Source: Haladaptatus sp. ZSTT2
GTDB taxonomy: Archaea; Halobacteriota; Halobacteria; Halobacteriales; Halococcaceae
Direction of reading: 5' to 3'
DNA: 64,000 nucleotides
Assembly: GCF_037081775.1 (NCBI RefSeq)
Contig: NZ_JBAMHQ010000001.1
Span: forward strand, 1,178,001 to 1,242,000
Shown here: piece after piece, positions 590 through 52,235 of the stretch
Numbering within the stretch: position 1 is the first letter of the stretch
How the letters are laid out: each line of letters starts with the position of its first letter
Program-made: the position numbers and the translations under genes
Notes under the pieces: generated by a model
Seen by the model: only the letters and a program-made list of their open reading frames with translations
Told to the model about the DNA's origin: nothing
The model's database searches: none

Positions 590-643
590 TGGGAACACAA
601 ACGGCCCGAACCCGTCATACATCCGTCGAACGCACCCGGCACA

Positions 644-649
644 TTTATT
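644..649 (+). promoter_or_regulatory. TATA box for the STT3-like gene
   Basis: TTTATT lies about 28 nt upstream of the chosen ATG at 675. That is the archaeal TATA-to-start distance, so the transcript is probably leaderless. This supports 675 rather than any upstream start. Confidence 0.5.
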
Positions 650-674
650 CGAGTTTGTCAGTATCTCCGTGATA

Positions 675-4280: not shown

Positions 4281-4339
4281 TACAGATACTTGTCCGTAAT
4301 CTGTCTTGAGGATTTGGAATAGTCAGTGCAGTGAGAGGG

Positions 4340-4347
4340 TTTTTACT
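4340..4347 (+). promoter_or_regulatory. TATA-like element of aglF
   Basis: TTTTTACT is centred about 26 nt before the ATG at 4370, which implies a leaderless or nearly leaderless aglF mRNA. It sits in the 89-bp aglM-aglF divergent region. Confidence 0.4.
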
Positions 4348-4369
4348 GTAAGAGAGCACACACGGTGGT

Positions 4370-15672: not shown

Positions 15673-16617
15673 CTACTCCGCGAGCTGTTCGCGCTGGTTC
15701 GTTGCGACGAGACGTCGCAGTCCGTCGTCGAGTGCGACCTGCGGGTCGTATCCGAGGTGGTCGCGAGCCCGCGAGATGTCGGCACAACTGTGCTGAATGT
15801 CGCCCGTTCGTGCGTCGGTAAACTGAATCTCCGCCCGCAGGCCGGTCGCCTCACGAATCAGCGTCGCGAGGTCGAGAATCGAGAGCGCCACGCCCGTCCC
15901 AACGTTGAACGCCTCGCCCGTGTGGTCGGTGGTCGCCGCGAGCAGGTTTGCCTGCACCACATCATCGACGTGGACGAAATCACGAGTCTGCGAGCCATCG
16001 CCGTGGACGACGAGTGGCTTGCCGTTGGTGGCGCGGTCGACAAACGTACTGATGACGCCGCTGTAATCTCCCGCAGTCTGGCGCGGGCCGTAGACGTTGA
16101 AGTAGCGTAGCGCAACCGTGTCCAACCCGTAGAGCCGGTTGTAGGCGCGGGCGTAGTGGTCGCCTGCGAGCTTGTCGATGCCGTACGGTGAGTCGGGCGC
16201 GGTGGGCGCGTCTTCGGTGATAGGCACCGTTTCGGGTGCGCCGTAGATGGCCGCACTCGATGCCGTCACGACGCGAGCGTCGTTCTCGCGGGCCGCTTCG
16301 AGGACGGCGACGGTGGCGTTCGCGTTCACGAGATTGCTGAAGTACGGCGCTTCGACCGAGCCTTTGACGCTCACGAAGCCCGCCTCGTGGAACACGAGGT
16401 CAACGCCCGCCATCGCCGCGGTGAGCGCGCTTGCATCGCAGACGTCGCCCTCGATGACCGTGATGTTCGTGGGTAGATTTGCGCGGCGTCCCGTCGAGAA
16501 ATCGTCTAAGACGCGAACCGTGTTCGACGGTGCAAGCGCGTCCACGAGGTGGCTCCCGATGAACCCAGCGCCCCCCGTCACGAGGACGGTCTGACCAGAA
16601 ATCGGTGAGTCACGCAT
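15673..16617 (-). CDS. NAD-dependent sugar epimerase/dehydratase (GalE/WbpP-like)
   Basis: 314 residues of the extended short-chain dehydrogenase family. The Rossmann motif TGGAGFIG is at residues 14-21. The catalytic serine region is TASSAAIYG and the Tyr/Lys pair is in YGIDK. RYFNVYGPRQ and the HVDDVVQANLLA segment are typical of UDP-sugar 4-epimerases. It likely interconverts a UDP-hexose or UDP-uronic acid for the adjacent GT2. The start at 16,617 places nine residues ahead of the first strand. Confidence 0.87.
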   Translation of the reverse strand: MRDSPISGQTVLVTGGAGFIGSHLVDALAPSNTVRVLDDFSTGRRANLPTNITVIEGDVCDASALTAAMAGVDLVFHEAGFVSVKGSVEAPYFSNLVNANATVAVLEAARENDARVVTASSAAIYGAPETVPITEDAPTAPDSPYGIDKLAGDHYARAYNRLYGLDTVALRYFNVYGPRQTAGDYSGVISTFVDRATNGKPLVVHGDGSQTRDFVHVDDVVQANLLAATTDHTGEAFNVGTGVALSILDLATLIREATGLRAEIQFTDARTGDIQHSCADISRARDHLGYDPQVALDDGLRRLVATNQREQLAE

Positions 16618-16941: not shown

Positions 16942-17946
16942 CTATCGTTTAACCACGTTGTAGGCGGTCTTCGCCACGTCCATGAGCGGATTGTTGGTCT
17001 CGACGACGTAGTACGGCACGAGGTGCGCGCCGAATTTCGACTTGTAATCACAGAGGCGTTTGGTGTTCGCACCGACCATGTCGTAGGTGGTAATCGACGA
17101 GAGCGCCGGGTCTTCTGCCATGTCCTTGAGGATTGCCCAGTGCAACAGCGTGTTGACGCTCACGTTCTCGTAAGAGGCGCGCATCCCGCCAAGCCAGTAG
17201 TACGCCGTGTCGTTCGAGTAGAGCGTGATGATGCCGTTCAGGTACGCGCCCGTGCCGTCGCGGGCGACGTAGACGCGACAGCGGTCGCCAAGCGAGAGCA
17301 GCAGGTCGCGGACGTACTCCCACGAGAGGGTGAACGTCTCGCCTTGCTCTGCGTAGCGCGCGACCTGGTCGTCGTAGATGATTTTGGCCGACTCGATGCC
17401 TTCGACGCTGAAGGTCAAATCGAGGTCGTCGAGGCGGCGAATCTCGGTGCGTAGACTCCGGCTAAAGGAGCTCATGACCGAGTCGAGTGATCCGTCAGCG
17501 ACGGTGAGGTGGTAGGTGAAATCCGACGACACCCGAAAGTCGTCCCAGCGATACGGCCGTGGGTCGTGATACGACGGCGAACACACCATTCGCAACAGCG
17601 TCCGTGGGCTGTTCGCGTCGAGTTCTTCTAACACGCCCTCGGTGAACTGCTGGTTCAGTTGTTCGTGTTTGCGGCGCTTCGGGCTGTTTGGCATCAGTAC
17701 CGGCCCGAGGTGGGGAATCCCCATCGCGGGTGGCGGCGACATGATGGTCCGCCCGACCGAGCGGTCTTTGACGAACGTTGGCAACAGCGCGACCGGTTCC
17801 TCGCCGTTGAAGCCGCCAAACAGCTGCATCTCCGCTGCGGTGTGGTCGTCGATGACCCGGAGTGCCTCTGGCGTGTGAAATACCTCAAAGCCTGCCGCGG
17901 GGAGGGCTGCCTCCCACTCCGACAGGTCAAGTTGCTCTATACGCAT
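16942..17946 (-). CDS. FemAB/FemX-like GNAT-fold aminoacyl- or acyltransferase
   Basis: 334 residues with the double-GNAT layout of the FemAB family (lipid II interpeptide bridge enzymes and archaeal relatives). Recognisable points are the substrate-side segment SFSRSLRTEIRRLDDL, the central ARYAEQGETFTLSWEYVRDL, and the C-terminal AYYWLGGMRASYENVSVNTLLHWAILKDM with DMVGANTKRLCDYKSKFG, a common FemAB-like ending. Bacterial relatives transfer aminoacyl groups from tRNA to a lipid-linked sugar precursor. Archaea lack murein, so here the acceptor is presumably a surface glycan sugar. It leads the epimerase and GT2 genes on the same strand. Confidence 0.8.
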   Translation of the reverse strand: MRIEQLDLSEWEAALPAAGFEVFHTPEALRVIDDHTAAEMQLFGGFNGEEPVALLPTFVKDRSVGRTIMSPPPAMGIPHLGPVLMPNSPKRRKHEQLNQQFTEGVLEELDANSPRTLLRMVCSPSYHDPRPYRWDDFRVSSDFTYHLTVADGSLDSVMSSFSRSLRTEIRRLDDLDLTFSVEGIESAKIIYDDQVARYAEQGETFTLSWEYVRDLLLSLGDRCRVYVARDGTGAYLNGIITLYSNDTAYYWLGGMRASYENVSVNTLLHWAILKDMAEDPALSSITTYDMVGANTKRLCDYKSKFGAHLVPYYVVETNNPLMDVAKTAYNVVKR

Positions 17947-18193
17947 GTGAGTTCAGCCTGTGTATGCGTGAGGGATACTCTTTGTAACGCAGAACCTACC
18001 GGGAGAAGGAACCGATTACAGGCGATAGTTGTGCGATTGTACTACAAGAGCACCGACACGGAAAACCCTCGGTAGGAACCGCCATCAGCGCATAGTGAGT
18101 CCGTAACTATACTCATGGTTTTCGAACATATAGCTGATTCAAACTGATTGCTGTGTCGGGTGGTTCGTCGTCACAGCCAGAGAGTGATTCCAC

Positions 18194-19165
18194 GTGTTCC
18201 AAAAATCAATTAATAAGGTGTATACACAGACACCGGAAGCCTATCAGGAATTCCTCCGGAAATGGTACTACGTCCTCAATCCGAAGATGTCGTGGCGCGA
18301 CCGAAAGAAGACGCTCCAGACGACAGCTCAGTTCTCCGGACGCTTTTTTGACTGCCAAGAGACGATGCAAAAGTACGAAGCGGAGTTCAACGAGAGCATC
18401 ATCGGTCCGGCCATCTACCAAGGGATGCAAGACCTGCCCGAAGGGGTGTCGCTGTTCGATGCACACAAAGACGAGTGCGTTCGACTGTACGCGCTCATCC
18501 GGGAGTACAAACCAGCCGTCATTGTCGAAACCGGCGTCTACAGCGGTGTCTCGACGATTTCGATTCTCGCGGCGCTCGAAGCAAACGAGTTCGGACGGCT
18601 CTACTCGATTGACTACTCACACGTCCTGAGCGACGAGTCTGCAGCGGTAGACCCGATTACAGAACAGAGCTACTTCCGTGGCCGACCGTCGTGTGCAGAG
18701 GAAGGAACGCATGTCCTCCCGAAAGGCAAACAGCCGGGCTGGCTGATTCCAGCCGACATGCGTGACCGCTGGGAACTCATCCCCGGCAGGCCACAGATCG
18801 AGTTACCGCGGCTGCTCGATCGTCTCGGTGAAATCGACCTGTTCCACCACGACTCGTCACACGCCGCCTCGAGCATGATATTTGAGTTCGAACTCGCCTG
18901 GCAGTACCTGCGTCCGGGCGGCCTCATGGTCTCAAATCACATCGGCTGGAACGACGCATTCGAGACGTTCGTCTCTGAACACTCAGACGATTACGGCCTC
19001 ATGACGTGGCACTACAATCCCGGCGCGGACTACCCGTGCCCGGGTAGCAGTGGCTACATCGTCAAATCGGCAGCCAACACCAACGCCACCGACAGCAGCG
19101 GCGTCGTCCAATCGGTGGTGCACGTCCAGCCACCGGAGCAGGTGGCAGAGCCAGCAACTGACTGA
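18194..19165 (+). CDS. Class I SAM-dependent methyltransferase (Methyltransf_24-like)
   Basis: 323 residues with a GTG start at 18,194. The N-terminal 100 residues are helical. The SAM-binding motif I is IVETGVYSGVSTISILAALE (about 113-132), followed by LYSIDYSH. IDLFHHDSSHAASSMIFEFE and YLRPGGLMVSNH match the class I methyltransferase motifs downstream. Related enzymes modify sugars or small molecules in polysaccharide loci. The stop codon TGA (19,163-19,165) directly abuts the ATG of the Kelch gene, so the two are translationally coupled. Confidence 0.78.
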   Translation: MFQKSINKVYTQTPEAYQEFLRKWYYVLNPKMSWRDRKKTLQTTAQFSGRFFDCQETMQKYEAEFNESIIGPAIYQGMQDLPEGVSLFDAHKDECVRLYALIREYKPAVIVETGVYSGVSTISILAALEANEFGRLYSIDYSHVLSDESAAVDPITEQSYFRGRPSCAEEGTHVLPKGKQPGWLIPADMRDRWELIPGRPQIELPRLLDRLGEIDLFHHDSSHAASSMIFEFELAWQYLRPGGLMVSNHIGWNDAFETFVSEHSDDYGLMTWHYNPGADYPCPGSSGYIVKSAANTNATDSSGVVQSVVHVQPPEQVAEPATD

Positions 19166-20242
19166 ATGACCATCCCTCCATCGTTTTCTCACCCGACACG
19201 GCGCTCGTTTCTGACCACGACTGGACTCCTCTTTGGGACGCTCTCGGTCGCGGGCTGTTCATCGCTCATCGCGCCGCCATCGCTCGACACGGAGACCTCG
19301 TGGGAGCGCGGCGCGTCGCTTTCGCTCGACCGAACCGAAGTCGCGGCCACCACGCTCGGCACGTCGCTCTACGTCATCGGCGGCATCGAACCCGGGAGGC
19401 AAGCAAGCCGGGCGGTCGAACGCTTCGACCCCGAACGCGGCTCGTGGGAGCGTGCGCCCTCGCTCCCCGTTGGACTCCACCACACCGCGGCCGTCAGTGT
19501 GGACGACGCCATCTACGTCATCGGCGGCTACCAGAACCAGTGGGATCCCGTGAACACGGTCTACCGCTTCGACGGGATGGCGTGGACCGAACGGGCGACG
19601 ATGCCGACCGTCCGCGGCGCGCTTTCGGCGGCCGCCCACGACGGCATCATCTACGTCACCGGTGGCGCGGGCGTAGACGGCGTTCTTTCCACGTTCGAAC
19701 GCTACGACACCGCGAGCGATTCGTGGGCGCGTGGCCCGCCGATGCCCACCGCGCGCGAACACCTCGCTTCCGCGGTCGTCGCCGGGAAGTTCTACGCCAT
19801 CGGCGGGCGAACCGGAGGGCTGCGCACGAATCGCAGAACCACCGAAGTGTACGACCCAGAGACGAACGAGTGGCGCGCGGTGGCAGGAATGCCCACCGCA
19901 CGCAGTGGCTTTGGGGCCACCGTGTTCGACAACGCCATCGTCGTCGCGGGCGGTGAAGGAGCTGGCGGGACAATCGCAGAAGTCGAACTCTACGTCCCGG
20001 AACGCGACGAGTGGCTCAGACTCCCCGACATGCCAACGCCGCGCCACGGCCTCGGCGTGACGGCGCTCGGAAATCGGATCTTTACGACCGCAGGTGGACC
20101 TGAACCGGGCTTTTTCTACGCGAACACGGTCGAAGTGCTGACCTTCGAAGCCGGGAGCGTGCGCCCGGTCGTGAAAACCTCACAGTCGCTCGTGTGTGAC
20201 CTGCCGTTGCTTGGCGGGTTGCTTCGCGGAACGCTGTGTTAA
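19166..20242 (+). CDS. Tat lipoprotein with Kelch-repeat beta-propeller
   Basis: 358 residues. Twin arginines at 12-13 (TRRSFLTTTG) and a lipobox SVAGC with C31 give a Tat-exported, lipid-anchored protein. From about residue 45 on, five to six Kelch blades are visible, each with a YVIGG/YVTGG/YAIGG strand followed by a YDP..W..-type end (WERAPSLP, WTERATMP, WARGPPMP, WRAVAGMP, WLRLPDMP). Kelch propellers bind ligands, often glycans, or act as galactose oxidase-like folds, but no catalytic residues can be assigned. It abuts the methyltransferase gene. Confidence 0.85.
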   Translation: MTIPPSFSHPTRRSFLTTTGLLFGTLSVAGCSSLIAPPSLDTETSWERGASLSLDRTEVAATTLGTSLYVIGGIEPGRQASRAVERFDPERGSWERAPSLPVGLHHTAAVSVDDAIYVIGGYQNQWDPVNTVYRFDGMAWTERATMPTVRGALSAAAHDGIIYVTGGAGVDGVLSTFERYDTASDSWARGPPMPTAREHLASAVVAGKFYAIGGRTGGLRTNRRTTEVYDPETNEWRAVAGMPTARSGFGATVFDNAIVVAGGEGAGGTIAEVELYVPERDEWLRLPDMPTPRHGLGVTALGNRIFTTAGGPEPGFFYANTVEVLTFEAGSVRPVVKTSQSLVCDLPLLGGLLRGTLC

Positions 20243-20245
20243 AAA

Positions 20246-21292
20246 TTAGTTCGATGCCGTGACGTCCACCCAGACATAGAGGTGACGGTAGGCGTTGTCT
20301 GCGGTCGGGTCTGCTGGAACGTCGCCCTTATACAGCAAGTAGCTGAGTCTGAGGTTCTCACCGGTCATGGTCGGGGTGAGTTCGTGTGACTCCAGCCACT
20401 TGCCTTTGTCCTGAACGGTTGCACTGTAGCGGTCCAACTCTTCGCGCTCTACGACCGAGAGTCCTCCATCAGCGGTTTCGACACGCTGGAGTTCCACGAT
20501 TACGTTGTACGTCGTCGATCGACCCTCTTGGTTTTCGACGACAATCAGGAATTCTTGTGGAACCCCTTGCTGGAACTCGGTTGGATATCCAGAGAAGACG
20601 AAATCCCCCGTTTCGGTTTGTGAGAGCAACGAGAACTCTGTGTACTCCTCTGCGTAGTTGGGGACGAATAGTGCGTAACCGAATCCGGTCGTCGCTACGA
20701 CGACAGCACAGATGAGAACTGCGTTCAACGCAAGGTCCAGTTTTGACTCTGTATCAAAAACCGCAACCGACAGCTCAGAAACCCACTGTTTGACTGGGAT
20801 ATCGAACCGTTCTTCGGGTGCAAGAGCTTTCCGTCGTTGCGACCCGACAAACAATGCCAGTGTGATAAACACGCTGAGACTCCCGACAACAGTGCTAATA
20901 GTGAGTCCGAAGCCTGCAAGCGAAAGTGCGATTGCGAGCGGCGGCATGAGCGCGATGCTGAGGCCAAATGAGAGGGCAATCCGCTCACCGAACGTGATTC
21001 CACGCTCCCGCGTACGGATGAATCTCGGAAGTGGCCCCTCAATAGAATCGTTGTGAACCCACCCGTCAATGTTGGTTTCAAGGCTGAAACGGTGTGGATA
21101 AAGCGCTAACAATAGAACAAACCCAGGGACGAACAGCACTAGCGGAAGACCGATAATCGTTCGCATGAGGGAGTTTTCCGTATAGAGAACAAACGAGAGA
21201 CTTAGCAGAAGATACACGAGTCCCACTGCTAGATCCATCCCCGGAACGTGAACCTGCGAGAGTACTTTTCGCCAAATCGTTTCGTCAGTCAT
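20246..21292 (-). CDS. DUF1616 membrane protein
   Basis: About 348 residues starting at one of two adjacent ATGs (21,295 or 21,292). The sequence has two early helices (LAVGLVYLLLSLSFVLY, IIGLPLVLFVPGFVLLLALYP), the family landmark FGERIALSFGLSIALMPPLAIAL, a further helix, and a helix near 195-215. A C-terminal extracytoplasmic beta domain of about 130 residues follows (FSGYPTEFQQGVPQEFLIVVENQEG), the DUF1616 arrangement. Such proteins are frequent in archaeal glycan clusters next to flippases and polymerases, but the biochemical role is not known. The gene is convergent with the Kelch gene, 3 bp apart. Confidence 0.8.
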   Translation of the reverse strand: MTDETIWRKVLSQVHVPGMDLAVGLVYLLLSLSFVLYTENSLMRTIIGLPLVLFVPGFVLLLALYPHRFSLETNIDGWVHNDSIEGPLPRFIRTRERGITFGERIALSFGLSIALMPPLAIALSLAGFGLTISTVVGSLSVFITLALFVGSQRRKALAPEERFDIPVKQWVSELSVAVFDTESKLDLALNAVLICAVVVATTGFGYALFVPNYAEEYTEFSLLSQTETGDFVFSGYPTEFQQGVPQEFLIVVENQEGRSTTYNVIVELQRVETADGGLSVVEREELDRYSATVQDKGKWLESHELTPTMTGENLRLSYLLYKGDVPADPTADNAYRHLYVWVDVTASN

Positions 21293-21474
21293 CATAGTGC
21301 ATTCATCCAAACGGTCACCCGACCGGGATACTACCGTTTGCTAATGTAGAGATAGGCAGGTTCACACATTGTTATCCTGCAACTTCTATCTGAAACTGTG
21401 CGTTCAGGGATTTGGCACGTTCTGAAAGAAAAGAACCAGCGCCGGGAATCGAATTAACGATTAGTTAACTCGAC

Positions 21475-23376
21475 TTAGAAATCGTCTTCGTTGACTTTCT
21501 CACGGTTGAGAACGACACTTACGTTTCGTTCGCTGGTAAAGTCGACAACCTCGCCAGTAAATTCGTAGCTGTCGGTGCCACCCGCAACGATACCCGTTGC
21601 AGTCGACCCAGAGATGCTGTCTTCAGAGTCGATAGACGCGCCTGCTGCGTCGCTCTTACTCAGGGAACCAGTCACGCTGAACTCGTACTCGATGAGGTTG
21701 TTCGGGCTTCCGCCGGAGATACTGAGGACGTTCGTCTTCTCTTCTGTGTAATCTGCCGGGTCAAGCTCCTCACCGTTTACCGTTACCGTTGCGTCGTCGC
21801 TGAGAGTAAGATCAGTAACCGAGCCACTGAATCGATAGCTATCGACGCCACCACCAAGGGTTCCCGTGGCGGTAGAGCCCGAAATCGAGTCTCCGGAGTC
21901 GATGGTTGCGCCGTTTGCAGAACTCTTCTCTACGTCACCATCGACGGTGAAGCTGTATTCGACGATGTTTGAGGAACTTCCACCAGTGAGGCTGATGACG
22001 TTGTCGAGGTCGTAATCTGCGAGATTAATCTCCTCACCGTTTACCGTAACTCTCGCTTCACCATCAATCGAGATGTGGACGAGGTCGCCTTCGAACCCGT
22101 AACTGTCGATGCCGCCAGCGACGGTGCCAGTCGCTGAGGAGCCGTCGATTACGTCTTCTGAATCGATGCTCGCACCATTTGCATCGGTCTTTTCGAGCGC
22201 GCCAGTGACACTGAACTCGTAGTTCGCAACCGACCCGTCGGTTCCGTAGATGGAGATGATGTTTTCGTAGTCCGTCTCAACCGTGTCGTCTTGCGTCGTA
22301 GTCTCCGTAGTCGTCGTACTGTCGCTGGTCGTCGTCGTACTGTCGCTGGTCGTCGTTGTCGTCGTGCTGTCTGAGGTTTGTGCGCTTCCACTCGCGGCTT
22401 CTTCTGCATTCTGTGGAACGCCCGCGGGAACGCGGATGTCAGGATTACTGCCGAGATTTTCCGTCTCAGTGTGCTCACCGCGAATTTCACCAACGACTTC
22501 AGAATCGACGATACGAATCGTACTGCAGTCACCGTAGGTGCTGTGTTCGCCGGAGTAGGCGACGCTCGCTCCACCGTTGGTGTTATCGTCGGTGATGCGG
22601 ATGTCACAGTTCTCAACCATAACGACCTGTGATGGGTCACCGTATCCCGTGTAGAAGCCGCGTGAGTTCACAACACCGCTGTCCCCACCCGCCGTTGATG
22701 GGTGGGGTGGCACGTCGCTCGTGTTGTGAATTACAGAGTCTCTAACGAACGAACCGTCCGAGGCGATACGTAGGTGTGCGATGTTATTATCGCTGAAGTA
22801 ACAGTTCGTGAAGCCGGTCGAGCCGCCTTCACCGTCGGTTTTACCGGGCTCAATGAGGCGAGCCGGGCCAGCAACGTAACACGCGTTTGCCGTCCACCGC
22901 GAAACGTACATGTTTTGGACGTCTATGTGTCCTGCGTGGTCTGGTGGGACGATGAGTGCACCCTTGCGAATGCCATCTTCGTGCCCGTCGCCCATGTACA
23001 CGTTCTCAATGAGACCGTTGCCTTCGACGCCGAAAACGTACTTGATTCCACCAGTGTCGCCACCGATGTCGAAGACACCTCTAATGCCGATGTTGCGAAT
23101 CGTCCAATCGTCACCGCTCGCGGAGAAGCTGACGTCTGCTTCAGGAGCACTCACGTCGATAAGGATGTTTTCGAGCGTTTCCCCGCTCCCAACGTGGAAT
23201 GAACGCCGCTCACCAGCGTCTAATACGATTTCTGTATACTCTGCTGCATCTGCCGAACCGCTTACTGCAGTCCCCGCACCAAGGGCTGCAGCAGACATAC
23301 CAAGTGCCTTGAGGTAGGTACGTCTGTTGAATAATTTATCATTAACACCGAGTTTTTCACCACTGCGTCGTTCCAT
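21475..23376 (-). CDS. Tat-exported right-handed beta-helix surface protein with three C-terminal repeats
   Basis: 633 residues. A Tat signal (FNRRTYLKALGMSAAA, RR at 18-19) is cleaved near ADA-A (about 45). Residues about 50-325 form a right-handed beta-helix of the pectate-lyase type (DDWTIRNIGIRG, NCYFSDNNIAHLRI, VENCDIRITDDN). A Thr/Ser-rich linker (about 337-371) follows. Then come three tandem copies of an 85-90-residue module at 372-458, 459-548 and 549-633. The first two modules end in TVNGEE. No catalytic triad is assignable, so it could be a glycan lyase, an adhesin or a binding protein. It faces the AsnB-like gene divergently across 357 bp. Confidence 0.82.
   Translation of the reverse strand: MERRSGEKLGVNDKLFNRRTYLKALGMSAAALGAGTAVSGSADAAEYTEIVLDAGERRSFHVGSGETLENILIDVSAPEADVSFSASGDDWTIRNIGIRGVFDIGGDTGGIKYVFGVEGNGLIENVYMGDGHEDGIRKGALIVPPDHAGHIDVQNMYVSRWTANACYVAGPARLIEPGKTDGEGGSTGFTNCYFSDNNIAHLRIASDGSFVRDSVIHNTSDVPPHPSTAGGDSGVVNSRGFYTGYGDPSQVVMVENCDIRITDDNTNGGASVAYSGEHSTYGDCSTIRIVDSEVVGEIRGEHTETENLGSNPDIRVPAGVPQNAEEAASGSAQTSDSTTTTTTSDSTTTTSDSTTTTETTTQDDTVETDYENIISIYGTDGSVANYEFSVTGALEKTDANGASIDSEDVIDGSSATGTVAGGIDSYGFEGDLVHISIDGEARVTVNGEEINLADYDLDNVISLTGGSSSNIVEYSFTVDGDVEKSSANGATIDSGDSISGSTATGTLGGGVDSYRFSGSVTDLTLSDDATVTVNGEELDPADYTEEKTNVLSISGGSPNNLIEYEFSVTGSLSKSDAAGASIDSEDSISGSTATGIVAGGTDSYEFTGEVVDFTSERNVSVVLNREKVNEDDF
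21478..22263 (-). repeat. Three tandem protein modules of 85-90 residues
   Basis: Each copy begins N(I/V)(I/L)S(I/L), contains (Y/I)EYxFxVxG, then ANGA(S/T)IDS or AAGASIDS, then a SATGT or STATG block with GGxDSYxFxG. The first two end in VTVNGEE. Copies 2 and 3 are closer to each other than to copy 1 in the ISGSTATG segment. The same module style occurs at the C-termini of haloarchaeal cell-surface proteins as I recall them. Confidence 0.8.
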
Positions 23377-23733
23377 GTTTTGGGGAATCTACGTTCAACT
23401 AAAGATATTTCCGGCTACTTTAGTTCCATTTTATTGAATGTTAGCAGCAGGTGGCTTTTTTTAATTCCCAGATACCTGGATATTTATTAGTATCACTCCC
23501 GTTCAGGCTCCTAATACGAGATTCAGATACAGAAAAACCATGAAAGTAGAAGGGAAAATTTCGTGAGATTAACACCGTCCTAACGTGATTATTGGACGTT
23601 TATTGATTGACTGAATATCCCGATAGCTGTAGTTCGCGCCCGGTAGCCAAGTCGTACGCGTAGAAGATTCCTATCGTCTCTCCCAAGGTATGGAGCCCAT
23701 TACAAAGTCAGTATTTGCACAACTGAGAGTAGA
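23377..23733. other. Divergent control region, 357 bp
   Basis: The AT-rich region between the beta-helix and AsnB-like genes holds several TATA-like stretches, for example TATTTATTAG near 23,480. I see no repeat or gene. Confidence 0.3.
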
Positions 23734-25518
23734 ATGCCTGGGATTAGCTTGGTTCTTGGAAGCGCTAACGAAGACTCCATCGAGTCGGCGTTGAATGCTG
23801 TTCGCTTCTTCGAGAACTACGAAGTACGAACTGAGTGGGTGACCGAAGAGACTTTGATTAGCTATTCGGGCTATGCAGACTACCCGCTCACACGTGTCGA
23901 GACCGACTCCGAGATTATCATCCTTGAAGGAAAGCTCTATGGTAGCGGGAATATCGAGTCAGTTCTCACACACGTTGGGGGAATGATTACTAATGAACGT
24001 CACGAAGAGCTTTCAGAGTGGGTCAGAGAGACGGACGGTGACTTCCTTATAGTCGTCTACAACAAAGCCAGCGAAGAAACCCACGTTATTAACGATGTAT
24101 TCGCTCGCCTTCCAGTCTACTACGCTACGATAGGCGACTCACTCATCGTTTCCCGCGAATTAAAGTTCGTCCGGACGTTTGCCACCGAGTCTGGGACGCC
24201 TCTAGTAGTGAACCAGCTTGGGGCTGCTCAGCAACTTGCCTTTGGATACTGTCTTGGCGATCGGACACTCTTCACCGACGTTCGCTGTCTCCCTCCAGGA
24301 ACTCACCTCACGATAGCCGACGGCTTCAAACTTTACCGAACCTATCAGCACAATTTCGACGGGAGAACGCACGCAGACAAGACGGTCGAAGAAAATGGTG
24401 TTGCGCTCGCGTCGCTATTCAAAACGGCTGTGCGAAACCGGCACCGACCCAATGCAACGACTGTCCTCTCGCTCAGTGGTGGCCTCGACTCTCGGGCAGT
24501 TGGCGGTGCCTGCATCGCCACCCAGACGCCGTTTACTACTGCCACGTTCGACACCGGTGACGAAAGCGAGAGCGACGATGCCCGTGTGGCGAGAGAGATT
24601 GCAGACCGACTTGGTGTAGAGTGGCACAGCTACAAGACTGAGACGACAGATGATGCGCGCGACTGGCTGCTCGACATGAAACAAGGAATGAACTACCTCG
24701 GAATGGCATTCATCCTTAGCTTCTTCGAGCAACTCCGCGAAGACTTCCCACAGGCAACATACCTCACCGGCGATGGGGGTGACAAAGTGTTGGTTGACCT
24801 CACACCAGTCAAATCCCTCTCCTCAGAGGAGGCCCTCGTTGAGTATATCATCGAAGCGAACAGCCGCATCCCGCTCGACGAGGCCGCTGCTATTGCCAAT
24901 GTCACGCCAGAGTCCATTGTGGAGAGCGTCAAAGAACGGCTTGCAAGCTACCCAGAACGACAGTTCGCCCAGAGATACGTCCACTTCCTCATTCGTGAGC
25001 GAGGCATCAACTTCCTCAATCACGGCGAAGACCGGAATCGGTACTTCTTCTGGAGCGTCTCGCCGTTCTACGCGCTCCCAGTGTTCGAGTACGCGATGAA
25101 CTGTCCAGACGAACAAAAACAGGGACAGGCGCTCTACAAGGCGTTCCTCGGGGAGTTCGCTCCCGAACTCATCGACATCGAATATCCGAACTTCGGCGCA
25201 CCGATTACTTCGCTCGAATATCGGGCGAAACGGTTCGTGTTTGACGTCCTCTCGCGGTACCCATCACTCCGTCACACGGTCGTCAAACGGATGAAAGACG
25301 ATTCGATAGCGAACAGCGCAGTCACGAGAGAAATCGATGCCCAGCTTTCGACCGCTGACCTCGATCCGCTCGACACCGACGCGATTGCAGCGGTTACAGC
25401 CAATCCCGGTGCCTACCGGCTGATAGAGCTAAATTTCCTGCTCACACTTACCACGATTGTCTCCGATATGCGAACCGCAACAAAACACTCGGTAACGGGT
25501 TCACCCGCAGACGATTAA
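23734..25518 (+). CDS. Asparagine-synthase-like amidotransferase lacking the N-terminal cysteine
   Basis: 594 residues. Residues 1-205 have the class II glutaminase fold of AsnB (DGDFLIVVYNKASEETHVINDVFARLPVYYA), but position 2 is Pro instead of the catalytic Cys, so glutamine hydrolysis is not expected. Residues about 215-594 are the synthase domain with the ATP pyrophosphatase P-loop LSLSGGLDSR (246-255) and a TGDGGDK substrate loop. Glycan-locus relatives amidate uronic acids or other carboxylates of sugars. In this locus, with AglM making glucuronate, uronamide formation using free ammonia is a plausible inference. The next gene follows after 187 bp. Confidence 0.8.
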   Translation: MPGISLVLGSANEDSIESALNAVRFFENYEVRTEWVTEETLISYSGYADYPLTRVETDSEIIILEGKLYGSGNIESVLTHVGGMITNERHEELSEWVRETDGDFLIVVYNKASEETHVINDVFARLPVYYATIGDSLIVSRELKFVRTFATESGTPLVVNQLGAAQQLAFGYCLGDRTLFTDVRCLPPGTHLTIADGFKLYRTYQHNFDGRTHADKTVEENGVALASLFKTAVRNRHRPNATTVLSLSGGLDSRAVGGACIATQTPFTTATFDTGDESESDDARVAREIADRLGVEWHSYKTETTDDARDWLLDMKQGMNYLGMAFILSFFEQLREDFPQATYLTGDGGDKVLVDLTPVKSLSSEEALVEYIIEANSRIPLDEAAAIANVTPESIVESVKERLASYPERQFAQRYVHFLIRERGINFLNHGEDRNRYFFWSVSPFYALPVFEYAMNCPDEQKQGQALYKAFLGEFAPELIDIEYPNFGAPITSLEYRAKRFVFDVLSRYPSLRHTVVKRMKDDSIANSAVTREIDAQLSTADLDPLDTDAIAAVTANPGAYRLIELNFLLTLTTIVSDMRTATKHSVTGSPADD

Positions 25519-25705
25519 TCTCCGCGGAGTGTCCTTCGCTGAAACCGTCCGGACACGAAGGAGAGAGCCGTATATCAAGGCTTGTTAATCCAGCTGTGAC
25601 CGTGGCAGGGAATCAATAACAAAAGGCGAGTGCTGCGTTTGAACGACAAATGGATTGTATACAACACCACTGGAGCCGGCCACGTCATCCGGTACGGGGA
25701 GCACG

Positions 25706-26812
25706 ATGAAAGTCCTCTTCGACGTGAACCACCCGGCACACGTCCACCTGTTCAAACACGCCATCTGGGAACTCGAAGCAAACGGCGTCGAAGTGCTCGT
25801 CACTTCGCGGCACAAAGAGATGACCACCGAGTTGCTAGACGCCTACGGCATCGAGCACGTCCCGCTCTCGGGTCGCCGCCCCGGGACACTCGGGCTGTTC
25901 GCAGAGTGGGCCATCCGCGAAGCCCGGATGCTGAACGTCGCCCGCAAATTCAAACCCGATGTGGTCGTTGGCCGACTCAATCCGCCGCTCGTCCACGTCT
26001 CGAAGCTCCTCGGCGCACGGAACGTCATCGTCATGGACACGGAAATCAAGTCCGCGGCAATCGACCGCATCTACTCGGTCATCACCCACCCGTTTATCGA
26101 CGTCTACTGCACGCCACCGAGCATCGAGCCGCCGACCGACCGCATCGACCACCACTTAATGGACTTCCAAGAGCTTGCGTATCTCCATCCGAACTACTTC
26201 ACGCCCGACCCGAGTGTGCTCGAACGCTACGGCGTGAACCCGGAAGACACCTACTTCGTCCTCCGGTTTGCGGGTTGGGACGCCTTCCACGACGTGGGCT
26301 TTAGCGGCATCTCGCCGGAGACGAAACGCGAACTCGTTGAGTATCTCTCTGCTCACGGCAAGGTCTACATCACGAGCGAGGGTGACCTCCCCGAGGAGTT
26401 CGCGGAGTACGCCCTGCCGCTTCCCTCGCATCTCGTCCACCACCTGCTCGCCTTTGCAGACCTCTACGTGGGCGACTCGGGTACGATGTCCTCTGAGGCA
26501 GCGATTCTCGGCACGCCCGCCATCCGCGCGAGTTCGATGGTGAGCCACGACACAGAAAGCATCTTCCACGAACTCGAACACGAGTATGGTCTGATGTTCG
26601 CGTACGCGGACGAGCAGGCCGCACTCGACAAGGCAAAGGAACTGGTCGAATCGCCCGCAACCGCCGACGAGTGGCGCGAAAAGCGCGAGCGCCTCCTCGC
26701 GGAGAAAGGCGACGTGACCACGCAACTCGTGGACATCATCTGGGAGGCAGGACAGGCAGTGCGCCCGAACGCCACCGACGCACAGACGCCCACACCGGAG
26801 GCGCAGCTATGA
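25706..26812 (+). CDS. DUF354 family protein (GT-B-like)
   Basis: 368 residues from the ATG at 25,706. The start is chosen because the family opens MKVLFDVNHPAHVHLFKHAI. An in-frame start 17 codons upstream adds an unrelated tail. The fold is GT-B-like: VVVGRLNPPLVHVSKLLG in the N-terminal half and LYVGDSGTMSSEAAILGTPAI in the C-terminal half, which in glycosyltransferases binds the nucleotide sugar. DUF354 proteins are common in archaeal glycan loci; no activity is established to my knowledge. Its TGA overlaps the ATG of the following glycosyltransferase gene (ATGA), so the pair is coupled. Confidence 0.83.
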   Translation: MKVLFDVNHPAHVHLFKHAIWELEANGVEVLVTSRHKEMTTELLDAYGIEHVPLSGRRPGTLGLFAEWAIREARMLNVARKFKPDVVVGRLNPPLVHVSKLLGARNVIVMDTEIKSAAIDRIYSVITHPFIDVYCTPPSIEPPTDRIDHHLMDFQELAYLHPNYFTPDPSVLERYGVNPEDTYFVLRFAGWDAFHDVGFSGISPETKRELVEYLSAHGKVYITSEGDLPEEFAEYALPLPSHLVHHLLAFADLYVGDSGTMSSEAAILGTPAIRASSMVSHDTESIFHELEHEYGLMFAYADEQAALDKAKELVESPATADEWREKRERLLAEKGDVTTQLVDIIWEAGQAVRPNATDAQTPTPEAQL

Positions 26813-27804
26813 CACAACAGATTCTCATGCAGAAAGAAGACAGCGTACAGGACGACGAACAGCTCCGGGTGCTGAACCTCGTGACGAGCAGCGAGTCGAC
26901 GTTCTTCAGACAGCAGGTTCGCTCCCTCGAAGATCGCGGCGTCTCGTGTACGAACCTCGCCGTCTCTCCAAAGCGGCCGAAAACGGACGAGAAAACCGAA
27001 ACCCGTCCCGTCACCGACTACATCAGATTCTTTGGAACCGCAACCAAGGAGTCGTTCGGTGAGTACGACCTCATCCACGCCAACTCCGGGTTGATTGCGC
27101 CTGCGGCAGTGTTCCAGCCAAACCTTCCCGTGGTGCTCTCACTGTGGGGCTCTGACCTCATGGGCAAGTTCGGGCCGGTGAGTAAGTTCTGCGCCCGACA
27201 CGCAGACGAAGTCATCGTGATGTCAGCAGAGATGGCGGAGTTGCTCGGTCAAGACTGCCACATCATCCCGCACGGCGTGGACACAGAACGGTTCAAACCC
27301 ATGGACAAAGCCGCCGCACGCGCCGAGCTTGGCTGGGAACAAGACGAAACCTACGTCCTGTTCCCCTACGCGGCGTCGAAAAGCGTGAAAAACTATCCGC
27401 GTGCAGCGCGCGTGGTGGACGCCGTCCGCGAGCAGTACGACGGCACGCTCAACCTGCAGACGGTGTTCCGTGTGCCCCACGAGCAGATGCCCCTCTACAT
27501 GAACGCCGCGGACGTGCTGTTGCTCACCTCACACCGCGAAGGCTCGCCAAACGCGACCAAAGAGGCGCTCGCGTGCAACACGCCCGTCGTCTCCGCCGCG
27601 GTTGGCGACGTGCGCGACCAACTGCGTGGCATCTCGCCGTCTGCCGTCGGTGAAACCGACGAGGAACTCATCGATGGACTGCTCTCGGTGCTCGAATCCA
27701 CCAAAGAGCCAAACGCGCGTGAGAAAGTGCTCAAGGAGATGAGCGCAGAGCGCATGGGCGAGCGCATCCACGAAGTGTACGAACTCGCGCTCGCAAAGCA
27801 GTAA
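26809..27804 (+). CDS. Family 4-like glycosyltransferase
   Basis: 331 residues from the ATG at 26,809, overlapping the DUF354 stop by 4 bp. GT-B landmarks are the N-terminal LRVLNLVTSSESTFFRQQV, YDLIHANSGL, SLWGSDLMG, and IPHGVDTERFKP opening the second domain. The EX7E nucleotide-sugar motif is in HREGSPNATKEALACNTPVV. It is cytoplasmic and adds a sugar to a lipid-linked intermediate. Donor and linkage are unknown. Confidence 0.87.
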   Translation: MTQQILMQKEDSVQDDEQLRVLNLVTSSESTFFRQQVRSLEDRGVSCTNLAVSPKRPKTDEKTETRPVTDYIRFFGTATKESFGEYDLIHANSGLIAPAAVFQPNLPVVLSLWGSDLMGKFGPVSKFCARHADEVIVMSAEMAELLGQDCHIIPHGVDTERFKPMDKAAARAELGWEQDETYVLFPYAASKSVKNYPRAARVVDAVREQYDGTLNLQTVFRVPHEQMPLYMNAADVLLLTSHREGSPNATKEALACNTPVVSAAVGDVRDQLRGISPSAVGETDEELIDGLLSVLESTKEPNAREKVLKEMSAERMGERIHEVYELALAKQ

Positions 27805-27814
27805 CGCGGTAAAA

Positions 27815-28759
27815 TCAGGGGGACGTGACCCGGGTGGTCGCGTCCGGCGAATTTTCTAACTGTTCATACAGGTCGCGTGGCGGGCCAATCCACGCGCCGA
27901 GTTCCTGGGCGTATTCGATGATGCGTTTGTAGAGTTCTCCCTGGCCGGGGAAGTCGCGGGCGGCGAACTTCATCGGGTGCCAGAGAATCGTCATGACGGC
28001 GTTGTTTGCTGCGGCTTCGTCGAGAACCGCCTTGCACTCACTCCACGCGTACTCGAAGTCCACCCCGGGGTCGGGGATGGCGTTTTCCATGAACGTGAGC
28101 GGGAACACCACGAAATCGTCGTCGAACGGCCGGACGATGTCGTAGCCGTGCTGGAAGCCGTACTCGCTGCTTGATCCGAGCGAGGCGTCGTACTTGAGCC
28201 CGAGGGCGGCGTGGTACTCCCACGTCGTCGGAACGTCGAGGTTGAGGTAGTGCTGTCGACCGCCCGTAATCTCGTGGCCGAGGATGGCTTCGAGCGTTTC
28301 TTTCTCGTAGGTGAGTCGCGCGAGGTCGGTGGGCGAATCGTACGAGCCGTGTATCCCGACCTCCCAGCCGCCGTCGTCTAAGCGGTGGATGACGTCCACG
28401 ATGGCCGGGTCGGTAATCGCGTATCGCCCGGCGTACAGCTGCCAGCTTTTCGGGCGAATCCACTCGCGCGGGTGTTTGTCCCCGAACAGCCGCTTTTCGT
28501 TCAGGAAGTAGAACGCAGAGCGCACCCCGAGATCAGCTTCGAGTTCCATGATGGTCTCGAACTGCCAGTAGGGGTTGTGCCCCGGCACCAGCGTCTGCAG
28601 GTGGTACGGGTCGCGGTTTTTGAGCGCGTAGTAGAGCGATTGATACCGCTTGTACGGCCGGTCTACGTCGTGGGTGAGACAGAGCCAGAACGTTGGGTCT
28701 GTGTCCTGAGGATTGACAGGACGCTCAGGGAGCGAGAGTGAATTAGTCACGAACGTCAT
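27815..28759 (-). CDS. Polysaccharide deacetylase-like protein
   Basis: 314 residues from the ATG at 28,759. The NodB-type features are CLTHDVDRP (HDVD at 30-33, with the metal and catalytic aspartates), the second metal motif GWEVGIHGSYDSPTD, and ILWHPMKF at the end for the third conserved histidine. There is no signal peptide, so it works in the cytoplasm, perhaps on a nucleotide-linked or lipid-linked N-acetyl sugar. It is convergent with the GT4 gene and divergent from the membrane protein at 28,945. Confidence 0.82.
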   Translation of the reverse strand: MTFVTNSLSLPERPVNPQDTDPTFWLCLTHDVDRPYKRYQSLYYALKNRDPYHLQTLVPGHNPYWQFETIMELEADLGVRSAFYFLNEKRLFGDKHPREWIRPKSWQLYAGRYAITDPAIVDVIHRLDDGGWEVGIHGSYDSPTDLARLTYEKETLEAILGHEITGGRQHYLNLDVPTTWEYHAALGLKYDASLGSSSEYGFQHGYDIVRPFDDDFVVFPLTFMENAIPDPGVDFEYAWSECKAVLDEAAANNAVMTILWHPMKFAARDFPGQGELYKRIIEYAQELGAWIGPPRDLYEQLENSPDATTRVTSP

Positions 28760-28944
28760 TACACATGTATGTCCTGCGACACACACACCTATTGTTATAC
28801 GGTCAGTTCTCGCAGGCCAAGTCGAGTTCAAACGATTACGCGCTATCCGATCCGTTAGTCACAGCATTTCCGTGTTCGGACAATGCGGGTAAGAGACCCA
28901 TAACAAAACGCGAAGGGAGACAATCAAAGCCAAGACAAACAGCT

Positions 28945-30837
28945 ATGAGCTTTATCACTCGAACGCCGCGAGCACAAGGAACTATAGAGGCGTCTTCGAC
29001 TCAGACGCGCGCCAGTAAACTCGCACTGGCTGTGGGATTTGTTGCCTTCTGGGTTGCGGTCATTGCAGCCTACAACGCACCCGCAACAGCCTACGAACTC
29101 TCGATTTACGCCGCAACACCAGATCAATTTTGGGCGGGCATCGCTACGGCAGTCGTCCTCGGGCTTCTCGTCGCATGGTTCGTAGCGCCCGAAAATAGCT
29201 TACGGAGCCTCGCAATCGCGCTCGTCGTTGGTTCCATCCTCGCGGTCGCCGCACTCCCCATCATTCGTGGCTACTTCTTTCTCGGTGCTGGCGACTCGCT
29301 CACACACCTTGGATGGATGAAAGATATCGCAACTGGCGTCCTCAACCCCTTGGACTTCCTCTATCCGGGAATCCACACCTCCACTGTGTTCATCGAGCGC
29401 GTGACCGGAATGTCTCTGGAGCGGGCGACGCAGTTCCTTGTGCTCGCCTACCTCCTGGTATACGTGACGTTCGTCGGGCTCACCGTTCAGCTCATCGCGA
29501 AAACCAAGTATGCGTTGTTGTTTGGGCTGTTATCAGGACTACTCGTATTGCCCATAAACAATATCAGTGTCCACCTTATGGCCCACCCCAGCACAGAAGG
29601 AATTTTCTTCCTGCCATTGGTGCTCTACGCGACGTTCCGCTATCTCACCAAACCGGCAAAGCCATTCAGAATCTGGCGACTTCCAATAACTCCATCGGCG
29701 ATCGTGCTCGCATTGGTTCTCACTGCGATCTTACTGATTCACCCACAGGTGACAGGGAACGTCATTCTCATCTTTGGGTCGATCAGCTTCATGCAGCTTG
29801 CATTCCGTCAATTGCGCAGTGAACACCCCCTCAGTCAACACCGCGCGCTCTTTGGACACACCATCTACCTCATCACGATTTTCTTGCTGTGGGCGCCACG
29901 AAACCCTCGCACGACGAATACGATTGATACGTTAACCAACGCTATCCTCTACGGGGCGTCTTCAGGGAGTGCAATCGCCCAACGTGGCTCGACGCTCACG
30001 GAGCTCGGTGGCAGCCTCCCAGAACTGTTCTTCAAGCTGTTCTTGATCAGCCTCGTGTTCGGGATTCTCTCTGCGATGATCATGCTGTTGAGTCTCGGCA
30101 GAAAATTCGCGGGGGAGTATCCCGTTGGGGACGCAATTGTCAAGTACATTACTCTTTCGATGGTGCCACTGTTCGGGATGTTCCTGCTGTTCTCAATTCT
30201 GCAGGGATCCACCCAACGCTTCCGCTACATCGGTTTCGTCATGGTGTTGCTCACGATTCTCGGTGCAGTAATGCTTTCGTGGGGCTTCGACTGGCTCTCG
30301 CAGCGGACGACAGGTACCCGTGTATTGCGAGCAGGTGTTGTCATCGCGTTCGTGTTCATGTTACCGCTCAGCACGATGACGATATTCTCTTCGCCATTCA
30401 TCTATCAGCCCACACAGCAAGTGACCGAGGCAACATTCAACGGCTACGAGACTGCCTTCGAGTACCAAGATCCGTCGATTCCGTTTACGGGAATTCACAG
30501 CGGGCCATCGCGATACGTCCACGCAATCTACGGCTCTCCGTTCACCAACGAAGAAGAAATAGTGCCAGGAGCAAAAGCGGAAGTGCCAAACGCTGGATTC
30601 GCAGTAGGCAATCTGACGACATACTATTCGTCTGACCGGTACATCATCTACTCTGATTCGACGGAGCAACGAGAGTTAGATCTCTACGAAGGCCTTCGGT
30701 ATCCTGCGGCCGGGTTTGCTGCTCTTGAGACGACCCCGAGAATCGACCAAGTCCACTCCAATGGAGAGGTTCGCGTCTACCTACTGCACCCGAATACAGC
30801 GCCTAACGTGACTGAGAATTCGACGGTAACAACGTAA
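28945..30837 (+). CDS. Polytopic membrane protein, GT-C-like, unknown activity
   Basis: 630 residues from the ATG at 28,945. About a dozen hydrophobic segments run from residue 26 to about 480. A C-terminal soluble region of about 140 residues follows (YQPTQQVTEATFNGYETAFEYQ onward). A loop GAGDSLTHLGWMKDIATG after the fourth helix holds acidic and histidine residues, as do catalytic loops of GT-C lipid-phosphate-sugar transferases. SVHLMAHPSTEGIFFLPL is another conserved-looking loop. I do not recognise a named family. Polymerase or mannosyltransferase-like activity is an inference. It is followed by the phosphatase-superfamily gene after 106 bp on the same strand. Confidence 0.65.
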   Translation: MSFITRTPRAQGTIEASSTQTRASKLALAVGFVAFWVAVIAAYNAPATAYELSIYAATPDQFWAGIATAVVLGLLVAWFVAPENSLRSLAIALVVGSILAVAALPIIRGYFFLGAGDSLTHLGWMKDIATGVLNPLDFLYPGIHTSTVFIERVTGMSLERATQFLVLAYLLVYVTFVGLTVQLIAKTKYALLFGLLSGLLVLPINNISVHLMAHPSTEGIFFLPLVLYATFRYLTKPAKPFRIWRLPITPSAIVLALVLTAILLIHPQVTGNVILIFGSISFMQLAFRQLRSEHPLSQHRALFGHTIYLITIFLLWAPRNPRTTNTIDTLTNAILYGASSGSAIAQRGSTLTELGGSLPELFFKLFLISLVFGILSAMIMLLSLGRKFAGEYPVGDAIVKYITLSMVPLFGMFLLFSILQGSTQRFRYIGFVMVLLTILGAVMLSWGFDWLSQRTTGTRVLRAGVVIAFVFMLPLSTMTIFSSPFIYQPTQQVTEATFNGYETAFEYQDPSIPFTGIHSGPSRYVHAIYGSPFTNEEEIVPGAKAEVPNAGFAVGNLTTYYSSDRYIIYSDSTEQRELDLYEGLRYPAAGFAALETTPRIDQVHSNGEVRVYLLHPNTAPNVTENSTVTT

Positions 30838-30943: not shown

Positions 30944-32530
30944 ATGAAAACAAATACTGAACTGAACTCAAGAGCATTCGTTCTTGGACTAGACGGGGTA
31001 CCGTGGGATTTGATAGAAGAATGGGTTGGAGAGGGAGAACTCAAGCACTTCGGAACGGTGATGCGAGAAGGGGCGGCAGGTCCACTCACGAGCACGGTAC
31101 CAGCAACGACGCCGCTCGCGTGGCCCTCGATTGCAACGGGTGTCAGACCCGATAAACACGGTATCTACGGGTTCCGCCGGCTCACAGAAAACTACACCCA
31201 TCAGGTGTACACCGGCAACGACGTGAAACAGCCCACACTCTGGGAGATGCTCTCACCGGCCATCGTCGGGAATGTGCCGATGACCTATCCGGCGCGTGAA
31301 ATCAACGGAACCATCGTCGCCGGGATGATGACGCCGCAGATTGGCGAGGGGTTCACCTATCCGCCGTCTCTGAGCGACGAAATTACGACCCGAATTCCGG
31401 ACTACCAAATCGCCCTCGATTGGAGCCAGTATCTGGACTCGAAAGACGAGTTTCTGCCAGATCTAAACGCCCTCGTCCAGAATCGAAGAGAGTTGATGCG
31501 CCTGCTCATGGCAGACGACGACTGGCGACTGTTCTTCTTCGTGTACACGGCTCCAGACCGCCTCCAACACATCATTTGGGAAGAGGACATCCTCCTCGAA
31601 CACTACCGGTACTTAGACGACATCCTCGGTGAGGTCATGGCGTACGTCGAGGCTCACGACGCGACGCTGTACATCGTCTCCGACCACGGCTTTGGGCCCA
31701 TCGAAAAGAAAGTCGCAGTCAATCGCGTACTCGCAAATGAGGGGCTGCTCACCCAGCGAAAGCAAAAAGGTGTCCGTGGAACGCTCTCTAAACTTGGAAT
31801 CACCAAAGACGGGGTGATGGGTGTGCTCTCCCGGCTTGGCATCGACGACGAGATGGTCGTAGACCACCTCCCACAGTCGGTGACGGCGCAGGTGGCAAAG
31901 CAGATTCCCGGCGCACACTTCCTGTTCGATGTCGACCACTCGAACACGACAGCGTTCGTTTACTCGTTCGGTCACGTCTATGTAAACGACACGCGGAGAT
32001 TCGAGCAGGGAATCGTCGATCCGACCGAAATTCCGGCCGTCAAGCGCCAGCTCAGGTCGGTGTTCGAAGGACTCACTGACCCTGAGACTGGCGAGCACGT
32101 CCTGCGGGTGACCGATGGTAAAGAGGAGTATCCCACGGATCCGACCGCACCAGACCTCATCGTTGAGCCACTCCCGCGGTACGATATCGCAACGGCACTC
32201 TCAGAGGAGATATTCACGCCGACACCAATGGCAGGAAACCACCTCCCAGAAGGGATCTTCCTCGCGTGGGGTTCCGACATCGCTGCCGGCAGTCGGCCAA
32301 CCGACGCAACCGTCTACGACGTTGCACCGACTGTCCTCCACGGGCTCAGCGAAGCGATTCCCGACAATACGGATGGACGAGTACTCCGTGAAATCTTCAC
32401 GCCCGAATCCATTCCCGCAACGGCCGAAATACGCGAAAAAGCGTACGCCAAAGGAGAGGTCATTGCGACCGTCGACGAGGATTTCTCCGATGTAGAGAAC
32501 CGACTCCGTGGGCTCGGCTACATCGAGTAA
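30944..32530 (+). CDS. Alkaline phosphatase superfamily (type I phosphodiesterase/nucleotide pyrophosphatase-like) protein
   Basis: 528 residues. The metal aspartate is in LGLDGVPWDLI (D17). The nucleophile region is VPATTPLAWPSIATG (T55/T56). SDHGFGP provides the second metal site and GNHLPEGIFLAWG the late histidine. No signal peptide or membrane helix is visible, so it appears cytoplasmic. Haloarchaeal members are frequent in polysaccharide loci. The substrate may be a nucleotide-sugar or a lipid pyrophosphate. It sits between a polytopic membrane protein and a beta-helix lipoprotein on the same strand, which suggests one functional module. Confidence 0.83.
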   Translation: MKTNTELNSRAFVLGLDGVPWDLIEEWVGEGELKHFGTVMREGAAGPLTSTVPATTPLAWPSIATGVRPDKHGIYGFRRLTENYTHQVYTGNDVKQPTLWEMLSPAIVGNVPMTYPAREINGTIVAGMMTPQIGEGFTYPPSLSDEITTRIPDYQIALDWSQYLDSKDEFLPDLNALVQNRRELMRLLMADDDWRLFFFVYTAPDRLQHIIWEEDILLEHYRYLDDILGEVMAYVEAHDATLYIVSDHGFGPIEKKVAVNRVLANEGLLTQRKQKGVRGTLSKLGITKDGVMGVLSRLGIDDEMVVDHLPQSVTAQVAKQIPGAHFLFDVDHSNTTAFVYSFGHVYVNDTRRFEQGIVDPTEIPAVKRQLRSVFEGLTDPETGEHVLRVTDGKEEYPTDPTAPDLIVEPLPRYDIATALSEEIFTPTPMAGNHLPEGIFLAWGSDIAAGSRPTDATVYDVAPTVLHGLSEAIPDNTDGRVLREIFTPESIPATAEIREKAYAKGEVIATVDEDFSDVENRLRGLGYIE

Positions 32531-40506: not shown

Positions 40507-40611
40507 ACACCCTTGATTCTGCTGGAAATAGGTTAAGAATGAATGTCTTAACAACGTAGTTGAATCTCAGAAACCGCGGTCTGTCTGTGAAACGAGTGCG
40601 AGAAAAACCGC

Positions 40612-48698: not shown

Positions 48699-48731
48699 CT
48701 CTCAGTTATACGTTAGCTAGGTAAAGTGCAG

Positions 48732-49829: not shown

Positions 49830-49876
49830 ACTATTCCGTTCAGCACTCCTCAACGGTAATGTTGTTCATCGTGTGA

Positions 49877-52185: not shown

Positions 52186-52235
52186 TGTTGTGGGCTTGTC
52201 ATGGAGCGTAAATACAGTTATGAAATCGGTACATC

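Follow-up and report, generated by a model that had tools for sequence, protein, structure and literature searches.

The DNA analysed here, referred to below as the window, is a stretch of 64,000 nucleotides from the genome of the haloarchaeon Haladaptatus sp. ZSTT2 (G000:C1:1178001-1242000). Its left end carries AglB, AglM and AglF, the Haloferax-type Agl N-glycosylation trio, together at 447-5107 (AglF being called from its nucleotidyltransferase family and its position only), and a long glycan island follows. Three genes of this island concern us most: one for a FemAB-type, VimA-like transferase of 334 amino acids (16942-17946, minus strand; PF13480, E 4e-19), one for an AsnB-like ATP-pyrophosphatase of 594 amino acids with a glutaminase-like domain that lacks the cysteine (23734-25518, plus strand; PF00733, E 2e-13), and one for a NodB-type (CE4-like), VimE-like deacetylase (27815-28759, minus strand; the mechanical open reading frame reaches 28831). 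Because the FemAB and AsnB families are conserved across genera, these are not chance reading frames. A preliminary description had joined the FemAB and AsnB-like proteins with an ATP-grasp ligase, two GNATs and AglM into one toolkit for a surface glycan bearing amino acids, uronamides or unusual N-acyl groups. Pfam and NCBIfam matches place all of these genes where that description had put them; what it overlooked is the deacetylase and its link to the FemAB gene, which is the strong link.

The deacetylase gene has no Pfam match, and its best NCBIfam match, VimE (NF053580), scores 44.6 bits against a cut-off of 440, while a profile search returned no solved relative of note. The HDVD, HGS and WHP motifs are conserved in the protein, and this is the only copy found in the genome (a single genomic match). 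We sampled 39 FemAB neighbourhoods, one per genus, in 34 of which the FemAB gene itself was called; a NodB-type gene lay within 10 kb in 27 of the 34, always on the same strand (27/27), where chance would give about 0.2 loci at one NodB gene per 4 Mb. Across the haloarchaea the FemAB gene typically follows the NodB gene on the same strand, and the two are found in operons of the form WbpD-E-B-A-GT2-WbpI-NodB-FemAB (L181 and L212) and WbpB-A-GT2-WbpI-NodB-FemAB (Halostella), and in the arrangement WbpI-NodB-x-FemAB-FemAB (Haloferax). Other families present in the 34 loci are DUF354 (22), WbpA (13), WbpB (10), WbpD (10) and WbpE (8). A second scan, of named genomes and partly overlapping the one-per-genus set, covered 80 FemAB loci, of which 52 had NodB and 28 had WbpI. 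Some genes were overlooked or put in the wrong frame by the automatic gene caller (AsnB in L049 and FemAB in five of the 39 loci are examples), so that these neighbour counts are probably lower bounds.

The product of WbpD-E-B-A(-I) is UDP-2,3-diacetamido-uronic acid, and the genome studied here has its own WbpD-E-B-A-GT2-WbpI operon at C1:2,287,496-2,293,764, outside the window. Among 391 haloarchaeal genomes, FemAB orthologues (E <= 1e-75) occur in 164, and WbpB is present in 161 of these versus 95 of the 227 without an orthologue (Fisher P = 3.5e-37, a value that overstates independence because the relatedness of the genomes is uncorrected). The near-lack of exceptions is informative despite this kinship. 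Any FemAB match at E <= 1e-25 is found in 231 of the 391 genomes and in 64 of 84 genera. The AsnB-like proteins form a distinct family that is present in 53 of the genomes and 20 of the genera and is likewise enriched with WbpB (48/53 versus 208/338 genomes, P = 8e-6). In two genomes, G393 and G169, which also encode the closest AsnB proteins outside the genus, Wbp A/B/E/D, AsnB, DUF354, NodB, FemAB and ATP-grasp genes all lie within ~35 kb.

A single-sequence search of the PDB gave no match for the FemAB-type protein, and a profile search placed FemX and a glycyltransferase first, weakly; for this reason we turned to a fold search with an AlphaFold2 model (pLDDT 92.2). The best Foldseek matches, with E-values down to 1e-14, were the aminoacyl-tRNA-dependent peptide synthases Sba18/Sbb17 (bound to an amino-sugar substrate), then FemA and FemX; lysyl- and alanyl-phosphatidylglycerol synthases were also among the best, and most acetyl-CoA GNATs ranked lower. 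Against FemA/FemX and Sba18/Sbb17 the query TM-score is ~0.66-0.72 at 11-15% identity, and the predicted fold is the double-GNAT fold of FemX-like proteins. This ranking of matches supports, short of proof, the view that the enzyme transfers an amino acid and not an acetyl group. Tandem FemAB genes were seen in five loci (L183, L230, L233, L239 and L242, four of the five from Haloferax), where a diverged paralogue (~160 bits) precedes the orthologue; such pairs could make two successive aminoacyl additions.

We consider it somewhat probable that archaea possess a counterpart of the bacterial Wbp/Vim pathway and that the window encodes its decorating half. Such a pathway would make an aminoacylated diamino-uronic acid, and the AsnB-like protein would serve in it as an optional uronamide synthase that depends on ammonia. 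WbpA, B, E and D, together with a WbpI-like 2-epimerase, all encoded in the operon at 2.29 Mb, would produce UDP-2,3-diacetamido-2,3-dideoxy-uronic acid; the NodB-type deacetylase would take off one N-acetyl group; and the amine so exposed would then receive an amino acid that the FemAB-type enzyme takes from aminoacyl-tRNA. The AsnB-like enzyme may in addition activate the C6 carboxylate with ATP and form a uronamide from free ammonia, and glycosyltransferases and a flippase would place the modified sugar in a surface glycan. We infer all of the substrates, the amino acid, the AsnB acceptor and the choice between a nucleotide- and a lipid-linked sugar from what is observed, namely gene content, conserved gene order, genome-level co-occurrence, fold matches and the absence of the cysteine. 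Of the chemistries first suggested for the island, a glycan with amino acids or uronamides has thus held up as the best reading, given the FemAB fold, the NodB gene order and the near-obligate presence of WbpB. That most haloarchaeal genera make surface glycans with an aminoacylated 2,3-diamino-uronic acid through a Wbp/Vim-like set, a minority of them adding an AsnB-derived amide from ammonia, is a more tentative proposal that falls a little short of an even chance.

Several observations weigh against this pathway. The FemAB and NodB genes of the window are 10 kb apart, the Wbp operon lies ~1.1 Mb away, and the co-occurrence statistics ignore the kinship of the genomes. The scores to VimE, to TIGR03019 (the FemAB family and best NCBIfam match of the transferase, at 29.5 bits against a cut-off of 260) and to TIGR03108 (an NCBIfam match of the AsnB-like protein, at 62.6 bits against 817) are all far under the equivalog cut-offs. 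AsnB and FemAB are independent of each other at genome level (P = 0.65 over the 391 genomes), and no more than five AsnB genes were seen at a distance of up to 30 kb from any of the WbpB matches listed. Lys449 of E. coli AsnB, late in the synthetase domain, we take to be catalytic, and no conserved lysine is seen at positions 483-490 of the AsnB-like family, a comparison made by eye, the hidden Markov model alignment to E. coli AsnB having ended short. No glycan structure with such a sugar was found for this group of organisms.

The role of the AsnB-like protein is the weakest step of the proposed pathway. Asparagine synthetase begins with MC, residue 2 being the glutaminase cysteine, whereas the window protein begins with MPGIS. 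Across 54 aligned members of its family position 2 is proline (35) or valine (19) and never cysteine, counts that are biased because starts were picked by the motif M[PV]G; Met1, Gly3 and the ATP-pyrophosphatase loop SGGxDSR are invariant. Since every one of the 55 full-length genes carries the motif except one, which has MAPG, absence of the cysteine is a family trait and not local decay, and the protein is most naturally read as a synthetase that uses ammonia or an amine. We regard it as rather unlikely, yet deserving of weight, that the protein, having adenylated a carboxylate, joins it not to ammonia but to some other amine or to an amino acid. The lack of the cysteine in the whole aligned family fits such a role, as do the Foldseek matches of the AlphaFold2 model (pLDDT 92.8), which include, beside asparagine synthetases (ASNS), the hydroxyamidotransferase TsnB9, carbapenam synthetase and beta-lactam synthetase, an enzyme that couples an internal amine; the AsnB-type fold itself is confident and does not discriminate between the uronamide and other amines. 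The strongest neighbours of AsnB are beta-helix proteins and a phosphodiesterase and not uronate genes: 57 AsnB loci hold a beta-helix-like secreted protein in 24 cases, a flippase in 22, the phosphodiesterase in 16, a second beta-helix protein in 15 and a GT-C-like protein in 13, with FemAB near in four, NodB in two and ATP-grasp in two. Against this alternative stand the enrichment of AsnB in genomes with WbpB and its position within ~11 kb of WbpB in G393, G169, G114 and G370. Further AsnB-like paralogues were noticed elsewhere in the same genome (G000:C1:187600-190070, L104, and 1112276-1112536, L103). An MC[GSA] N-terminus was absent from every PF00733 place examined, and proteins of this kind without the cysteine may be a broader haloarchaeal theme.

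An alternative that we hold to be unlikely keeps the Wbp sugar but involves no amino acid: NodB and FemAB would together remodel an N-acyl group, with FemAB an ordinary acyl-CoA N-acyltransferase. The operon would look identical in that case, the sole Pfam match of FemAB is to a GNAT domain named Acetyltransf_6 (PF13480), and GNAT acetyltransferases do appear lower in the Foldseek list. The best fold matches are nevertheless aminoacyl-tRNA-dependent, some with an amino-sugar acceptor, the profile search points weakly in the same direction, and either serine or glycine serves as the acyl group in the bacterial counterpart (PMC7468200).

It is improbable that these genes are unrelated passengers of an island built by lateral transfer, with no common pathway, even though AsnB is patchy in its distribution, gene order is reshuffled between relatives and base composition is uneven along the window; the order and strand of NodB and FemAB hold from genus to genus, and the link to Wbp is nearly without exception. 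The preliminary grouping of FemAB, AsnB, ATP-grasp, GNATs and AglM had some basis in proximity. Of 89 cases, 18 have an ATP-grasp homologue no more than 15 kb from FemAB, versus 1.3 expected at random (a weak control, glycan genes being clustered anyway); such a homologue is also near NodB/FemAB in G393, G169 and G389, and this recurrence makes the ligase probably related. The suggested survey of haloarchaeal genomes for co-occurrence has a divided outcome. FemAB, AsnB and ATP-grasp are neighbours at up to 30 kb more often than random placement predicts: AsnB and FemAB are that close in 12 of 56 cases versus ~1.5 expected, and AsnB is within this distance of both FemAB and ATP-grasp in six genomes (G000, G017, G393, G169, G114 and G299). 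At genome level AsnB and FemAB show no association, which led us to reject them as a genome-level pair. The GNATs, found in only a few other loci, were rejected as core members, and AglM (2988-4280, minus strand; NF041297, 777 bits against an equivalog cut-off of 670), which had been proposed as the source of the carboxylates, was rejected as the partner dehydrogenase and is better seen as a UDP-glucose 6-dehydrogenase of general uronate supply, AglM not being a recurrent neighbour of FemAB or AsnB, the dehydrogenases near these two scoring as WbpA-type rather than AglM, and this genome's WbpA-type enzyme being encoded outside the window. A single toolkit acting on AglM-derived glucuronate is accordingly very improbable, all its members sharing one glycan island notwithstanding.

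The remaining genes of the island fit a glycan locus in varying degree. On the minus strand, to the left of the FemAB gene, lies an SDR sugar-nucleotide epimerase (15673-16617) whose family is found in eight of the 34 FemAB loci. A Kelch-repeat protein with an N-terminal Tat/lipobox-like signal (19166-20242) matches Kelch and NanM-type propellers, and is followed by a DUF1616 membrane protein (20246-21310), homologues of which are repeatedly found at Wbp, FemAB and AsnB loci, including near this genome's own Wbp operon. Two beta-helix proteins, one on the minus strand with a Tat-type signal (21475-23376; fold by inspection, no Pfam match; the commonest AsnB neighbour, in 24 of the 57 loci) and one on the plus strand with a lipobox-like signal (32615-33961; the recurrent AsnB neighbour of 15 of the 57 loci), are possibly uronate epimerases or lyases. 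The plus strand also carries the DUF354 glycosyltransferase-like protein (25655-26812, likely ATG 25706), a GT4-type glycosyltransferase (26671-27804, likely ATG 26809), a homologue of which is near FemAB in 12 of the 34 loci and in most of these directly downstream of it, a GT-C/polymerase-like membrane protein (28765-30837; no Pfam match) that recurs near both FemAB and AsnB, and the type I phosphodiesterase (30944-32530). To the right, all on the minus strand, are the flippase (Polysacc_synt, 34019-35548), a recurrent AsnB neighbour, the first GNAT (35741-36886, PF13527), an FkbM methyltransferase (37050-37853) overlapping the ATP-grasp gene and also found near ATP-grasp in G169 (L171) and G016 (L174), the ATP-grasp ligase itself (37850-39139; PF15632, E 6e-10) and a second GNAT of the same family as the first (39364-40554, PF13527). 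Further on, at 48001-60000, a cassette of GT4s, a Wzy-like protein and a flippase has a GC content of ~0.48-0.50 versus ~0.60 over much of the rest of the window, and looks like a recently acquired glycan module.

The proposed pathway turns a list of genes into something specific and testable in many haloarchaeal genera, Haloferax included. If it is correct, archaea spend aminoacyl-tRNA on the decoration of glycans, the logic of the Wbp/Vim pathway extends beyond bacteria, and the amino acids and amides alter the charge of surface glycans that are usually called acidic; archaeal surface glycans may then bear amino acids far more widely than known. It would also be, to our knowledge, the first described tRNA-dependent aminoacylation of a glycan in archaea. 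The genes would be candidates for making the amino-acid sugars that chemical work has found in archaeal walls (N-glycyl-glucosamine is one), for which we know of no responsible enzymes. A literature search that reached few subscription journals turned up no account of such a pathway in archaea, and nothing relevant on archaeal FemAB/VimA glycan work or on AglU.

The closest bacterial parallel comes from Porphyromonas gingivalis and Tannerella forsythia, in whose Wbp/Vim pathway a diacetamido-uronic acid is built by Wbp enzymes. VimE is the proposed deacetylase that takes an acetyl group off this sugar, VimA determines whether serine or glycine is placed on the amine concerned, and in one of the two species WbpS goes on to form the uronamide (PMC7468200). 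VimA resembles TIGR03019 and WbpS is a member of TIGR03108 (PMC7468200), and it is to these two families and to VimE that the three proteins of the window weakly match. The archaeal set thus shares with the bacterial one Wbp A/B/E/D, a CE4-type deacetylase, a FemAB-like transferase and an AsnB-like amidotransferase; genes for the predicted WbpA/B/E/D activities are present in this genome and adjoin NodB-FemAB in other genera. It differs in the absence of the glutaminase cysteine from AsnB and in the additional ATP-grasp, DUF354 and glycosyltransferase genes. With three scores far under their cut-offs and an AsnB without the cysteine, the archaeal proteins cannot be filed as the same equivalogs, and the resemblance, read from gene content, is one of layout.

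The same trio of FemAB (TIGR03019), AsnB-like protein (TIGR03108) and deacetylase occurs in the XrtA/PEP-CTERM exopolysaccharide loci, where, by an earlier suggestion, it may make amino-acid-modified sugars (PMC7468200); those loci differ in being bacterial and tied to exosortase. The uronamide synthases WbpS/WbqG of P. aeruginosa O6, E. coli O121 and Helicobacter pullorum (PMC6025236, PMC7468200) are likewise AsnB-type enzymes of uronate-glycan loci, from which the archaeal family, lacking the cysteine, is remote in sequence. FemA/FemX and Sba18/Sbb17 offer the best predicted-fold likeness to the FemAB-type protein, with a peptidoglycan precursor and streptothrisamine as acceptors in place of the proposed diamino-uronic acid. 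Archaeal precedents qualify the earlier description of such a glycan as little-described, a fair remark in itself. The N-glycans of Methanococcus carry threonine on a mannuronic acid (ManNAcA6Thr) beside GlcNAc3NAcA, and so combine a diacetamido-glucuronic acid with an amino acid on a uronic acid, the threonine being at position 6 and not on a ring nitrogen; the enzyme that attaches it was not known in that review (PMC2952790). The cell wall of Halococcus morrhuae contains N-glycyl-glucosamine (cited in PMC4187196), a haloarchaeal amino sugar acylated with glycine, so that amino-acid-bearing glycans were already known from both groups of archaea.

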